Positions 25,619 to 33,811 of a stretch of DNA of 34,258 bases are shown one piece after another. The position numbers were made by a program, and so were the translations under genes. The first letter of the stretch is position 1. Each line of letters opens with the position of its first letter. Source of the stretch: Clostridiales bacterium (GTDB lineage: Bacteria > Bacillota > Clostridia > Caldicoprobacterales > DTU083); contig DUOA01000140.1 in the NCBI GenBank assembly GCA_012839095.1, positions 1 to 34,258 of the forward strand, in the 5' to 3' direction. The notes beneath the pieces were generated by a model. That model was not told where the DNA came from, searched no databases, and saw nothing but the letters and a program-made list of their open reading frames with translations.

Positions 25619-28012
25619 TCATCTTAATTTAGCACCCAGCTCAGTTTCCAGCAAACTCACAATTTTCTCATGAGCCTTGTTGACTTCTTCATCCTTTAAG
25701 GTTCGATCAGCTGCTCTGTAAGTCAGTGAGTAAGCCATGCTTTTGCATCCCTCAGGTATCTGGCTTCCCTCATAGATGTCAAAGAGGGATACTTCCTCCA
25801 GAATCCTTCCGCCGCCCCTTCGTACCCTTTCCAGTATTTCGGCAGCCAAAACCTTTTTATCCACAACAAAGGCAAGATCCCTGGTCACCGCAGGATACTT
25901 GGGCAATGAACGATATTGTCTTACGGTATTTGCTTTATCCAGCATGATCTTAAGATTCAGCTCACCCAAAATAGCCCTTGTATTAATGTCGTAGTTGGCA
26001 GCCGTGTTAGGATGCAACTCACCGAACTTGCCTATGGATTCTCCATCCAGCAGCACTTCCGCAGTCCTTCCCGGATGCAGGGCGGAATGCAGGGCAGCTT
26101 TAAACTCTACTCTTTCATCCAGCCCCAAAAAGGACATCAGTGCCTCAATTATTCCTTTCATAGCATAGAAATCTGCATCTTCCCCATATTCACCCATAGC
26201 CAGAGTCAGAACTTCCTCCGGCAGATCGGTCATAGGCAGAGATTTGGGAATAAAAACCGGATTTATCTCAAAAATGCTGCAGTTTTCTATCCGGCGGTTA
26301 TAGTTCCGGGACAAGACCTCCAGCAGGCTGGGCAGCATGGTGGTACGCATGACACTCTGATCCTCTCCCAGGGGATTGGCTATCCTTACCGTATCCGGAT
26401 AATCTGCCTTGTCTTTGATGCCGATGGACTCATAAACATTGGGGCTGGTAAAGGAATAAGTAATAACCTCGTACATGCCCATTCCGGTCATAATTCCTTT
26501 TATTTCATCAAGCAGCCTTTGCTCATCTGTCCTGCTTCCTTTTGCAGCAGAGCCTTCCATCAGGGTCATGGGAATGCGGTCATATCCGTAAATACGGGCA
26601 ACTTCCTCTGCCAAATCCGCCATTCCCTCAATATCATTCCGGTAGGTTGGAATAACAGCCGTCATGGTTTCACCCTCCACCGAAACATCTATGCCCAGAC
26701 TTTCCAGAATCTGGGATATTTCATCAGCCGTAAGTTCCAGACCCAGTAACTTATTTATCCGATTCCATTCCACAGTCAGCTTTTTCTTTTCAACAGAAGT
26801 ACCCAGCACATCAATCCGGCCCTCCACAAGGGTACCGGCACCGAGTTCCTGCACCAGCTGAACAGCCCTGTCCACAGCAGTAAGAGCCATATTGATGTCC
26901 AGCCCCTTTTCAAAACGGCTGGAGGATTCGCTTCTAATACCCAGGGCCTTGGAGGTCATGCGCACGCTTGCTCCCTGAAACAGGGCACTCTCAAATACAA
27001 TTTGCCTGGTATCTTCAGTTATCTCCGAATTGGCTCCGCCCATCACGCCTGCGAGGGCTATCGGCTTAACCGCATCTGCAATAACCAGCATTTCCGGTGT
27101 CAGCTTTCTCTCCTGGTCATCCAGGGTTATTATGCTTTCTCCCGGCCGGGCGGTGCGGACAATAATCTTCCGGCCTTCCAGTTTTTCCAGATCAAAGGCG
27201 TGCATGGGTTGTCCCAGCTCCAGCATGACATAATTGGTAATATCCACAATATTGTTTATGGGACGCACCCCTGCCGCAGCCAGCCGGCGCCGCATCCAGC
27301 GGGGAGACGGCTGTATTTTGATGTCCCTGACAACTCTTGCCAGGTACCTGGGGCAAAGATCCGGGTTTTCCACCTCTACCTGAAGTTCATCCTCTACCCT
27401 GCCCTTACCCGGTTTTACTTCTATCTTCGGCATGGCCCAGGATTTTCCTGTTGTCACTGCAATTTCTCTTGCCATACCAACTACGCTGAGACAGTCGGGG
27501 CGGTTGGAGGTGATTTCCAGGTCAAATACAACCCCGCCCAGATCCAGTGCTTCCTTTATGTCCATGCCCGGGGGATACTCTTCCTGCAGGATCAGAATAC
27601 CGTCTGTCTCTGCTCCGGGATAATCGCTGTCTTTAAGTTCCAGTTCCTCGCCGGAGCACAGCATTCCCTGGGACTCCACTCCCCTGAGCTTCCCCCTCTT
27701 AATGGTTATATCCCCCGGCAGCCTGGCGCCGTGCAGCGCAACGGGCACCAACCGGCCGGGTGCAACATTGTCAGCGCCGGTAACAATCTGCACTGTTTCA
27801 GTTCCAACATCCACCTTGCATACCAGAAGTTTATCGGCATTTGGATGACTCTCCACAGAGAGCAGCTTACCCACTACAACGCCTGATATTTCTTCACGCA
27901 GAGTAATTATATCCTCCACATTGGAACCGGTCATGGTCAGTTTATCAGCCAGTTCCTTCATATCTGCATCTACTTCAACATATTCTTTTACCCAATTAAT
28001 CGGCAGCAACAT
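25619..28012 (-). CDS. pheT: Phenylalanyl-tRNA synthetase beta subunit
   Basis: The 797 residues have the standard bacterial PheT order: an N-terminal EMAP-like tRNA-binding domain (about 40-150), B3/B4 editing domain (about 205-390), B5 domain (about 405-475), a catalytic-like core and a C-terminal anticodon-binding FDX-ACB domain (about 700-797). The B3/B4 region removes mischarged tyrosine. The protein forms an alpha2-beta2 enzyme with PheS, whose gene lies 12 bases upstream. The SD GGAGGAG comes directly after the pheS stop. Expression should follow the T-box that precedes pheS. Confidence 0.98.
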   Translation of the reverse strand: MLLPINWVKEYVEVDADMKELADKLTMTGSNVEDIITLREEISGVVVGKLLSVESHPNADKLLVCKVDVGTETVQIVTGADNVAPGRLVPVALHGARLPGDITIKRGKLRGVESQGMLCSGEELELKDSDYPGAETDGILILQEEYPPGMDIKEALDLGGVVFDLEITSNRPDCLSVVGMAREIAVTTGKSWAMPKIEVKPGKGRVEDELQVEVENPDLCPRYLARVVRDIKIQPSPRWMRRRLAAAGVRPINNIVDITNYVMLELGQPMHAFDLEKLEGRKIIVRTARPGESIITLDDQERKLTPEMLVIADAVKPIALAGVMGGANSEITEDTRQIVFESALFQGASVRMTSKALGIRSESSSRFEKGLDINMALTAVDRAVQLVQELGAGTLVEGRIDVLGTSVEKKKLTVEWNRINKLLGLELTADEISQILESLGIDVSVEGETMTAVIPTYRNDIEGMADLAEEVARIYGYDRIPMTLMEGSAAKGSRTDEQRLLDEIKGIMTGMGMYEVITYSFTSPNVYESIGIKDKADYPDTVRIANPLGEDQSVMRTTMLPSLLEVLSRNYNRRIENCSIFEINPVFIPKSLPMTDLPEEVLTLAMGEYGEDADFYAMKGIIEALMSFLGLDERVEFKAALHSALHPGRTAEVLLDGESIGKFGELHPNTAANYDINTRAILGELNLKIMLDKANTVRQYRSLPKYPAVTRDLAFVVDKKVLAAEILERVRRGGGRILEEVSLFDIYEGSQIPEGCKSMAYSLTYRAADRTLKDEEVNKAHEKIVSLLETELGAKLR

Positions 28013-28024
28013 CTTGATCTCCTC

Positions 28025-29044
28025 CTAGAACTGTTTCAGGAATCGTATATCGTTTTCAAACAGCAGACGGATATCATCGATTCCATATTTCAGATTGGTG
28101 ATACGATCCAGACCCATTCCAAAGGCAAAACCGCTGTAGACTTCAGGATCAATGCCGCAGTATTGCAGAACCTTGGGATGGACCATTCCCGCACCCAGGA
28201 TCTCTATCCAGCCGGTGTGGGAGCATATGCGGCAGCCTTCTCCATGGCAGATGGCACAGGTTACGTCCACTTCGGCGCTGGGTTCCGTAAAGGGAAAATG
28301 GTGGGGACGGAACTTGGTTCTGGTACCCGGGCCGAATACTTTCTTGGCGAACACATCCAGAACCCCTTTCAAATCTCCCATGGTAATATTCCTGTCAACC
28401 ACCAGGCCCTCTATCTGGTGGAATATGGGAGAGTGGGTGGCATCCACCGCATCAGAACGATAAACCCGGCCAGGACATATTATCTTGATGGGGGGCTTTT
28501 GCCTGAGCATAGTTCGTATCTGAACCGGTGAAGTGTGAGTGCGAAGAAGCATATTCTCATTTATATAAAAGGTGTCCTGAACATCCCGGGCAGGATGATT
28601 CTTGGGGATGTTAAGGGCTTCAAAATTATAGCTGTCCCATTCCACTTCCGGGCCTTCAGCTATATCAAAGCCCATGCCCAGGAAGATTTCGGTGAGTTCA
28701 TTAAGCACCTTGGTTATAGGATGCAGTTTACCCAGCACAGGCCTCTTACCTGGTATCGTAACATCAATGGTTTCAGCCTCCAGCTGTTTTTCCATGGCGG
28801 CCTGCTTCAGGGCAGCGGTCCGCTTCCTGAGACCTTCCTCCAGTTCATTGCGGATTTCATTTGCCAGCTGTCCTATAATCGGTCTTTCCTCCGGAGGCAG
28901 ACTGCCCATTCCCCGAAGGACCTGGGTTAATTCTCCCTTCTTTCCCAGTTTCTTAACGCGGAATTCCTCCAGCTGACCAAGATCATGCAGACCGCCCAGT
29001 GCTTCCATGGCTTCTTTTCTTATCTGCTCCAGCTTGTTTTTCAT
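28025..29044 (-). CDS. pheS: Phenylalanyl-tRNA synthetase alpha subunit
   Basis: The protein has 339 residues: an N-terminal coiled-coil arm that contacts tRNA (about 1-90) and a class II catalytic core. Motif 2 ([22 protein letters not shown] region, about 192-213) and motif 3 ([11 protein letters not shown], 305-315) are complete. Between them, residues 263-274 read [12 protein letters not shown], a four-cysteine insertion common in Firmicute PheS and probably zinc-binding. It charges tRNA-Phe together with PheT. AAAGGAG lies 12 bases before ATG 29044. A T-box leader upstream provides control by uncharged tRNA-Phe. Confidence 0.98.
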
Positions 29045-29110: not shown

Positions 29111-29352
29111 CAAAAAGCCTCCACCCCATAGGATACATGGGACGAAGGCTGTTTACCACGTGGTACCACCCAATTTCATTTCGTGTGAAACCTTAATACG
29201 CATAACGGGCCTGGCCCGGCAGGACCTACTATAAGTTCAGACCTGCGGCTCGGAAGCGAACTTCGATTCAGGATTAAGAGGAATGCTTTCAGCCTGTGGT
29301 ATTCCCTCTCTGGCATAACCCGGTTGAATCTACTTTTCTTCGTCACAGCCTT
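29111..29352 (-). promoter_or_regulatory. T-box leader (tRNA-Phe responsive) before pheST
   Basis: On the minus strand the Stem I opening GACGAAGAAAAGTAG starts near 29350, followed by the CAGAGAGGGAATACC distal region. UUC, the Phe codon, occurs at 29260-29258 and again at 29255-29253, where the specifier loop is expected. The T-box core GGGTGGTACCACG lies at 29171-29157. A terminator with stem arms AGCCTTCG... and ...GGTGGAGGCT and a T-run at 29116-29112 follows. Uncharged tRNA-Phe should stabilise the antiterminator and let pheST be transcribed. The specifier position itself is not resolved. Confidence 0.9.
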
Positions 29353-29353
29353 T

Positions 29354-29449
29354 TCATTTTGACATAACCATTTGTTTATAAAGAATATACGCTGTTACGG
29401 AACCTGTGGTTTCAAAGAGTCTCCAGAAGAACTCGGATACCATGAGCAT
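29354..29449 (-). CDS. yqzL: YqzL-like small protein (31 residues)
   Basis: A 31-codon ORF starts at ATG 29449 (or ATG 29443) and stops at TGA 29356-29354. AAAGGAG (29460-29454) precedes it. The peptide contains SEFFWRLFETTGSVTAY followed by ILYKQ, which resembles the YqzL family of tiny Firmicute proteins (aromatic-rich opening, then TG(S/N), then a Y-hydrophobic-Y/F-K stretch). In Bacillus subtilis yqzL lies between era and recO; here it sits between the SpoU methyltransferase gene and the pheST T-box. Function is unknown. The promoter at 29478-29506 is its own. Its SD lies in a hairpin that spans part of the coding sequence. Confidence 0.72.
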   Translation of the reverse strand: MLMVSEFFWRLFETTGSVTAYILYKQMVMSK

Positions 29450-29467
29450 CAGACTCCTTTACAGGTT
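29401..29467 (-). repeat. Hairpin covering the yqzL ribosome binding site
   Basis: AACCTGT...AAAGAGTCT (29401-29422) and its inverted partner AGACTCCTTT-ACAGGTT (29451-29467) can pair with one bulge and an internal loop. On the minus strand the left part of the stem contains AAAGGAG, the yqzL SD, so folding would hide it from ribosomes. Confidence 0.6.
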
Positions 29468-29477
29468 ATTTTACATA

Positions 29478-29510: not shown

Positions 29511-30344
29511 CTACCCGTCCATTTTTCTCCCTTTACGGAAAATTTCGTAAATTAGTATACCTGCTGCCACCGAGGCATTCAGAGATTCCGCTCCGCCCTT
29601 CATGGGTATTTTGACCAGGCTGTGGGCGTAACTTTTCACTTCCCTGCTGATCCCATGAGACTCACTGCCTATGATCAAAGCGATTCTGCCGCAGCCGCCC
29701 TTCCAGGCAAAAACATCCTCACCGCACAAATCACTGGCAGCAATATGAAAGCCGGCCTCGGCCGTCTTTTCAAGCAGCTCACTGCTTCTGCCTTCCCGGT
29801 AGATGGGAACCCGGAAAACTGAACCCATTGTAGCCCGGACAGCTTTGGGATTATAGGGATCAACACAATCGTTTATCAAAACAACCCCGTCTCCGCCTGC
29901 AGCGTCTATAGTCCGTATAATGGTGCCCAGGTTGCCCGGATCTTTTATTCCATCCAGAATTACCAGAAAACCCGGGTTTTGCTTCAGTGCCTTCTGAAAA
30001 TCGTATTCCTTTTGCCCAGCCACTGCCAGCACCCCCTGGGGAGACTGGGTATCCGACAGGGATTTGAAAAGCTTTTCTTTTACTATAATACAGCGAATAC
30101 CACTCTCCAGCGCCTGCACGGCAAGGGGATGATCGGACCAGGCTTCTGAAAAGATCAGCATGTCCAAAGCAAAATCAGATTTCAGTGCTTCTTCCACCAT
30201 TTTTTGCCCTTCTGCAATGAACCGCAGGTGCAGATCCCGATACTTTTTGTTCTGCAGGCTTCTCACATATTTAATGGTATTGTTTGAAGAGCCGGTAATT
30301 AATTCCGGCCTTTCCCTTTCTTTATTTCCGTCTCTTCCCTGCAT
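29511..30344 (-). CDS. SpoU/TrmH-family RNA 2'-O-methyltransferase (YsgA-like)
   Basis: From ATG 30344 the protein has 277 residues. A short substrate-binding domain (LQNKKYRDLHLRFIAEGQKMVEEAL) is followed by the knotted SPOUT methyltransferase domain with its three motifs: LDGIKDPGNLGTIIRT, IGSESHGIS and IPMKGGAESLNASVAAG. It uses S-adenosylmethionine to methylate a ribose in RNA, most likely rRNA. In Bacillus subtilis a homologue, ysgA, also lies just before pheST. A longer reading from 30395 would overlap ktrA by 74 bases; ATG 30344 has AGGAGA six bases upstream and overlaps by 23, so I prefer it. The target nucleotide is unknown. Confidence 0.9.
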   Translation of the reverse strand: MQGRDGNKERERPELITGSSNNTIKYVRSLQNKKYRDLHLRFIAEGQKMVEEALKSDFALDMLIFSEAWSDHPLAVQALESGIRCIIVKEKLFKSLSDTQSPQGVLAVAGQKEYDFQKALKQNPGFLVILDGIKDPGNLGTIIRTIDAAGGDGVVLINDCVDPYNPKAVRATMGSVFRVPIYREGRSSELLEKTAEAGFHIAASDLCGEDVFAWKGGCGRIALIIGSESHGISREVKSYAHSLVKIPMKGGAESLNASVAAGILIYEIFRKGRKMDG

Positions 30345-31005
30345 CTGAACTCTCCTGAAATCTTTCAATATCTTCCGTACTGCCCAGCACCACAAGAATA
30401 TCCCCGTTATGAATTATATCTTCACCTGAAGGCGATATATTGATATCATCGCCGCGCTTGACAGCCATCACATTAATGCCGTATCTGGCGCGTATATCCA
30501 AATCTCTTAAGGAGCGATTATTCCACACATCAATTGCCTGCAGCTCAACCAGCCTGTAGTGAGGTGTCAGCTGAATGTAATCCAGTATATTGGTGGATAC
30601 CAGGCTTTGTGCTATCCGCACTCCCATATCCATTTCAGGCAAAACCACCTTGTCAGCTCCGATCTTGTAGAGCAGTTTGGAATGCAGTTCATTCTGGGCT
30701 TTGGCCAGAACATACTTCACTCCGGCCTCCTTGCAAAGGAGTGTTATCAGGGTGCTGGATTGAATGTCCTGCCCGATTGCCACCACTGCCACATCAAAAT
30801 TACGAATACCAAGGGTGTGCAAGGCGTTCTCATCTGTTGCATCTGCCTGGACAGCATGAGTTATTTTTTCTGAAACCGCCTGTACCTTGTCCTCATCCTT
30901 GTCAACGGCCAGCACCTCATGACCCATGCTGTGCAGGGTTACAGCAATGCTCTCGCCAAACCTTCCTAATCCAAAAACCACAAATTGCTTCATGATCTCC
31001 ATCAT
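30322..31005 (-). CDS. ktrA: Potassium uptake regulatory subunit, TrkA/KtrA (RCK) family
   Basis: The 227-residue cytoplasmic protein has one RCK_N Rossmann domain (GLGRFG at 12-17, followed by VDKDEDK that binds the adenine nucleotide) and one RCK_C domain (about 145-220). A single RCK unit matches KtrA rather than E. coli TrkA, which has two. It assembles as an octameric ring on the membrane subunit and gates it in response to ATP/ADP. Start choice among M1, M2 and M5 is not resolved; AAAAGGAG stands immediately upstream. It lies 18 bases after the channel gene and overlaps the SpoU gene, so all three are probably one operon. Confidence 0.93.
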   Translation of the reverse strand: MMEIMKQFVVFGLGRFGESIAVTLHSMGHEVLAVDKDEDKVQAVSEKITHAVQADATDENALHTLGIRNFDVAVVAIGQDIQSSTLITLLCKEAGVKYVLAKAQNELHSKLLYKIGADKVVLPEMDMGVRIAQSLVSTNILDYIQLTPHYRLVELQAIDVWNNRSLRDLDIRARYGINVMAVKRGDDINISPSGEDIIHNGDILVVLGSTEDIERFQESSDAGKRRK

Positions 31006-33629: not shown

Positions 33630-33811
33630 TCGTTCACCTCCGGTGTATTTGGCAGCCGGCAGTACCGGCTTTGTGACTTAAACCCACTCAATAAAAATAA
33701 AAGGAGCGGGCAGCCTCTACCCACTCCAAAATATGCACATAACATATCATTGTATGACCTTGCCTGGCTTCTTGCCGGAAGGTGAGAAGTGGATAGCTTC
33801 TACTTGTTCAC
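33630..33811 (-). promoter_or_regulatory. L20-type leader of infC-rpmI-rplT
   Basis: About 180 bases of untranslated leader lie between the promoter and the ATT start. They contain local stems (AGAAG/CTTCT around 33785-33803 and a CCGGC...GCC(A)GG stem) and an internal terminator. Firmicute infC operons have such leaders, where L20 binding favours early termination. Assignment to that RNA family is by position and layout; a covariance-model search would settle it. Confidence 0.75.
33690..33728 (-). terminator. Attenuator terminator in the infC leader
   Basis: On the minus strand GGAGTGGG pairs with CCCGCTCC (one G-T pair) around a 9-base loop, followed by TTTTATTTTTATT. It stands about 60 bases before the infC start and is likely the regulated terminator of the leader. 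Confidence 0.85.

Follow-up and report, generated by a model that had tools for sequence, protein, structure and literature searches.

The window (the whole stretch of DNA analysed, 34,258 nucleotides of contig DUOA01000140.1 from a Clostridiales bacterium) carries pheS and pheT preceded by a T-box leader, a short open reading frame assigned below to the YqzL family, and a gene that we take to encode a TrmH/SpoU-type RNA methyltransferase, here called trmH. All are on the same strand (Table 1), with the trmH stop codon a short way ahead of the yqzL promoter. At 30322-30395 (-), a trkA-like ORF overlaps the TTG listed as the trmH start. In many relatives the alignment begins only at about residue 13-31, so the true start of trmH is probably further downstream. 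Elsewhere in the window, a ribosomal protein L20 leader [RF00558] at 33692-33811 (-), scoring 61.2 bits, precedes genes that are presumably infC-rpmI-rplT.

Table 1. Features of the trmH-pheT region of the window.
Feature	Position	Strand	Evidence or remark
TrmH/SpoU-type RNA methyltransferase gene (family name presumed)	29511..30395	-	ORF; synteny
Promoter, -35	29506-29501	-	TTGAAC; 17-nt spacer to -10
Promoter, extended -10	29483-29478	-	TG.TATAAT; score 10 of 12 plus TG
yqzL Shine-Dalgarno (SD)	29460-29454	-	AAAGGAG; sequence
yqzL ORF, form first described	29354-29449	-	31 codons, start 29449
Short yqzL, probable form	29354..29443	-	ATG 29443, 29 aa MVSEFFWRLFETTGSVTAYILYKQMVMSK; PF14006, alignment, pN/pS, AlphaFold
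T-box leader RF00230	29135..29355	-	Rfam, 104.9 bits
T-box specifier UUC (Phe)	29260-29258	-	GUUC invariant in 16 aligned sequences
T-box antiterminator core UGGUACCACG	29168-29159	-	Invariant in 16 aligned sequences
T-box intrinsic terminator stem, then T run	29116..29150	-	Terminator search
pheS	28025..29044	-	ORF; homologues 62-87% identical in 24 related loci
pheT	25619..28012	-	ORF; synteny

A preliminary description of this DNA reported a 31-codon YqzL-like ORF with a good SD ahead of the pheST T-box. That frame exists, but the alignment of relatives begins at its third codon, so the start is probably the ATG there and the protein 29 aa. The window peptide matches the Pfam YqzL profile [PF14006] with 31.1 bits (E 2.8e-7), above the gathering cut-off of 27 bits, and 46 of the 47 aligned homologues also match at E 0.001. 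The match spans only positions 1-22 of the 44 in the profile. Pfam has no curated requirement for full-length coverage, and the partial coverage marks a short branch of the family while leaving membership intact. No NCBIfam model matches any member of this branch. The SD is kept as AAGGAG or AAGGGG in all relatives from the window's order. Values of pN/pS for short yqzL are 0.10-0.33 in all groups tested, and the gene is therefore under purifying selection; variability is 0.40 at third, 0.22 at first and 0.09 at second codon positions. Lack of conservation of the peptide in related genomes had been named in advance as an observation that would count against the proposal, and the peptide is instead strongly conserved. 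The profile match, selection and conservation bear out the description of a real YqzL-like gene.

An AlphaFold2 model built with the 47 homologues has two helices, at residues 4-15 and 18-30 (mean pLDDT 92.7, pTM 0.60), and short YqzL is thus confidently modelled as a two-helix hairpin. A Foldseek search of the PDB with this model and a PDB search with the sequence gave nothing significant, and a literature search on YqzL function returned nothing useful.

A second, canonical YqzL is encoded in the same genome, in the arrangement cdd-era-yqzL-recO on contig C12. The era-recO position is typical of the family though not defining, and the window copy lies instead between trmH and pheS. The two forms were compared in a sample of the phylum, using 79 loci of the short branch (some occur twice, leaving about 72 distinct; the motif search misread one, L154) and 28 era/recO loci. 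Both have the core W..F..TG....Y..Y, but short-branch proteins end 20-33 residues past the invariant Trp, against 33-55 in the recO-linked branch; the C-terminal tail is missing throughout the short branch, most members of which carry an [AS][DE]FFW signature. Within the window's order, where both copies are usually present, a short-branch profile separates them cleanly, scoring copies at trmH-pheS at 52-66 bits and the others at 20-44 bits. Judged by sequence and position, the window ORF belongs to a separate branch of YqzL, short and linked to pheS.

Of 30 genomes of the order searched with this profile, 24 have short yqzL, and there the gene order trmH - short yqzL - T-box - pheS - pheT recurs. 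In one more genome (locus L276) a copy with a weak score occupies the corresponding position. Across 24 related loci, 23 from the order and one from the class, yqzL adjoins pheS with the T-box between them, although at one locus (L057) the T-box scores 84 bits, under the Rfam cut-off; trmH is upstream of yqzL in the 22 of these loci where it was detected. In a phylum-wide sample, 100 of 199 genomes carry short yqzL, whereas only 8 of 99 taken from the class of the window do, a patchy distribution. Named genomes carrying it upstream of pheS include Tepidanaerobacter sp. and, weakly, Syntrophomonas sp.; it was not found in this position in the sampled Bacillus, Paenibacillus, Lachnospiraceae and Oscillospiraceae records.

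The preliminary description also proposed a strong promoter, no terminator before the T-box, and a transcript common to the small ORF and the riboswitch, and these proposals hold. Transcription is expected to start near 29471. Upstream of yqzL the mean promoter score is 10.9 in the window's order and 11.3 at 54 other loci, compared with 7.8 and 7.0, respectively, inside the ORF, and almost every relative has an extended -10 promoter at this position. At two loci that have lost yqzL (L274 and L275), the same kind of promoter runs straight into the T-box. Since the promoter upstream of yqzL is conserved and that of the yqzL-less relatives leads into the T-box, the predicted transcript is one shared by yqzL and the Phe T-box, and this promoter is best read as that of the pheST operon. 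The only terminator-like site on the strand between promoter and pheS (29150-29116) is the T-box's own.

The T-box begins at 29355, inside the yqzL stop codon. It exceeds the RF00230 gathering threshold of 93 bits and has the UUC specifier, the UGGUACCACG core and a terminator. Comparison of the loci shows, at the level of sequence, that promoter, yqzL and T-box are separable modules. L274 and L275 have promoter and T-box ahead of pheS without yqzL, and family f79 (L245-L247, L265-L270) has yqzL and terminator without the T-box, which its sisters L271 and L272 bear. Six of the f79 loci (L245, L246, L247, L265, L267 and L270) keep a CUUUCGUCC...GGACGAAAG terminator between yqzL and pheS where the T-box has been lost. 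Another tiny ORF (ATG after AAGGAGG, several Phe codons) overlaps the L246 terminator and was set aside, as it is not conserved in the sisters L245 and L247. At L273 (genome G004) both yqzL and the T-box sensor are deleted, while promoter and terminator stay before pheS.

Given the established gene, family, selection, synteny, promoter, T-box and separability of modules, we think it probable that short yqzL is a genuine small-protein gene, the first of the pheST unit, whose product is made with or without termination at the T-box. It would lie between the only strong promoter of the operon and the Phe-specific T-box, so that RNA polymerase starting near 29471 would transcribe yqzL and then the T-box. 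With charged tRNA-Phe, termination at the T-box would leave a short mRNA still making YqzL; with uncharged tRNA-Phe, read-through would add pheS and pheT. Because yqzL precedes the terminator, YqzL would be made in both tRNA states. The transcript ends and expression predicted from this arrangement would make YqzL roughly constitutive and pheST available on demand. The likeliest view of yqzL is therefore that of a microprotein gene which uses the pheST promoter and is expressed constitutively, the T-box behind it acting as a conditional terminator. The modelled two-helix protein probably works through binding a partner.

That partner may be PheRS itself. The strict link of yqzL to pheST across many families could mean that the gene is functionally tied to PheRS and is not a passenger. 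YqzL might then have been retained in the operon because it acts as a partner or a modulator of PheRS, or else of the adjacent RNA methyltransferase. As a dedicated microprotein partner it would be made continuously, and the enzyme on demand. Linkage of yqzL to trmH and pheS is seen again in many families of the phylum and survives loss of the T-box, and the predicted helical hairpin is well folded. However, three genomes of the order (L273, L274 and L275) keep pheST with no yqzL upstream of pheS, and at two loci (L111 and L116) yqzL follows trmH without pheS, which disfavours an obligatory partnership; the YqzL family also occurs at era-recO. We regard a dedicated partnership as rather unlikely on this evidence. 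At L111 and L116 the absence of pheS refers to the fetched stretch, and the frames downstream of yqzL include a membrane-protein-like ORF.

A second sensor had also been suggested. In such a scheme yqzL would be a Phe-rich leader peptide, and ribosomes stalling at its Phe codons during Phe starvation would alter T-box folding or terminator choice and add to tRNA sensing. The window yqzL does have three Phe codons (TTC TTC ... TTT), many short-branch members share FFW..F, and the tandem T-box and Trp leader peptide of Bacillus subtilis rtpA [PMC2311275] offers a precedent. In the window's order, moreover, AGUA mostly lies 12-17 nt after the yqzL stop, which abuts stem I, and a ribosome terminating there would sit over the base of that stem, a residual possibility for that order; outside it, the distance from stop to stem I varies. 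The Phe codons fall within a protein motif, [DE]FFW..FE.TG. Its last Phe is invariant in both branches, including recO-linked YqzL with no Phe operon, and at the first two (positions -2 and -1) L, V, I, M, A or Y also occur, the pattern of an ordinary hydrophobic face. Families f2, f3 and f4 of the order retain the T-box with a single Phe in yqzL. Phe count does not track T-box presence, with three Phe at 42 of 64 T-box loci and at 13 of 15 loci without a recognised T-box core, some of which carry diverged T-boxes. The T-box also occurs without yqzL in other genomes of the same family and order.

Nor does yqzL have the marks of an attenuation leader peptide. Cognate codons are not conserved (one to three Phe, one in f2-f4), and mutually exclusive pairing of the ORF or leader with the terminator arm was not found in the T-box-less relatives, to which that comparison was confined. 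Among them, no duplex between leader and terminator arm does better than shuffles at the 5% level. A candidate antiterminator pairing after the yqzL stop in the T-box-less L126 and L270 was suggestive but not beyond shuffles, and was rejected. Double sensing is accordingly very improbable, the Phe codons being accounted for by the protein motif.

The remaining proposal was that translation of yqzL is regulated by structure, the SD being sequestered in a hairpin with its own coding region. The SD can indeed pair 9/9 with ORF bases just past the Trp codon (AAGGAGUCU/AGACUCUUU), but in the minimum-energy fold it pairs elsewhere, and the fold of the region as a whole is no stronger than that of shuffled sequences (z -0.46). 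Only the window has exactly this stem, of which relatives keep 4-8 of the 9 pairs. Predicted accessibility of the window SD is low at 0.23, yet synonymous shuffles give 0.21, with 53 of 100 at or below the window value. Against such shuffles, the mean z for accessibility is 0.02 (s.e. 0.12) over 78 short-branch loci, -0.31 (s.e. 0.19) in the window's own order and 0.10 (s.e. 0.24) for era/recO copies. The predicted sequestration is what the amino-acid sequence and the SD together would give, not selected codon choice. With no excess sequestration and no stem kept in relatives, the hairpin lock is largely refuted by comparison and very improbable.

On the preferred reading of yqzL as a constitutively expressed first gene of the pheST unit, roughly half of the sampled genomes of the phylum encode, within the apparent pheST leader, a conserved protein of about 29 residues with a predicted fold, and the T-box would be no simple 5' leader but a conditional terminator placed internally, behind a protein gene. 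The short branch is also a practical starting point for studying what the uncharacterised YqzL family does. YqzL and T-boxes are already known separately. Neither the pheS-linked short branch nor a T-box as conditional terminator after a conserved protein gene appeared in the literature searched, which did not extend to the principal survey of T-boxes or to most journals that require a subscription.

Three known systems resemble parts of this arrangement. Canonical era-recO YqzL shares with the window protein the core motif and an above-cut-off match to PF14006, and the two occur in one genome, but the short form is without the C-terminal tail and the NCBIfam match, has its own signature in most members and lies at trmH-pheS. 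A T-box is normally the first element of its transcript. The window T-box resembles other pheST leaders in its full-length RF00230 match, UUC specifier, antiterminator core and terminator directly upstream of pheS, and differs in having a conserved protein gene between promoter and stem I. The leader of B. subtilis rtpA, the gene for anti-TRAP, likewise combines a T-box and a short ORF on one RNA; there the short ORF precedes rtpA, and the sensor that regulates translation is its Trp codons [PMC2311275]. Here, in contrast, the ORF precedes the T-box and encodes a conserved protein with a predicted fold, and its Phe codons are not conserved.
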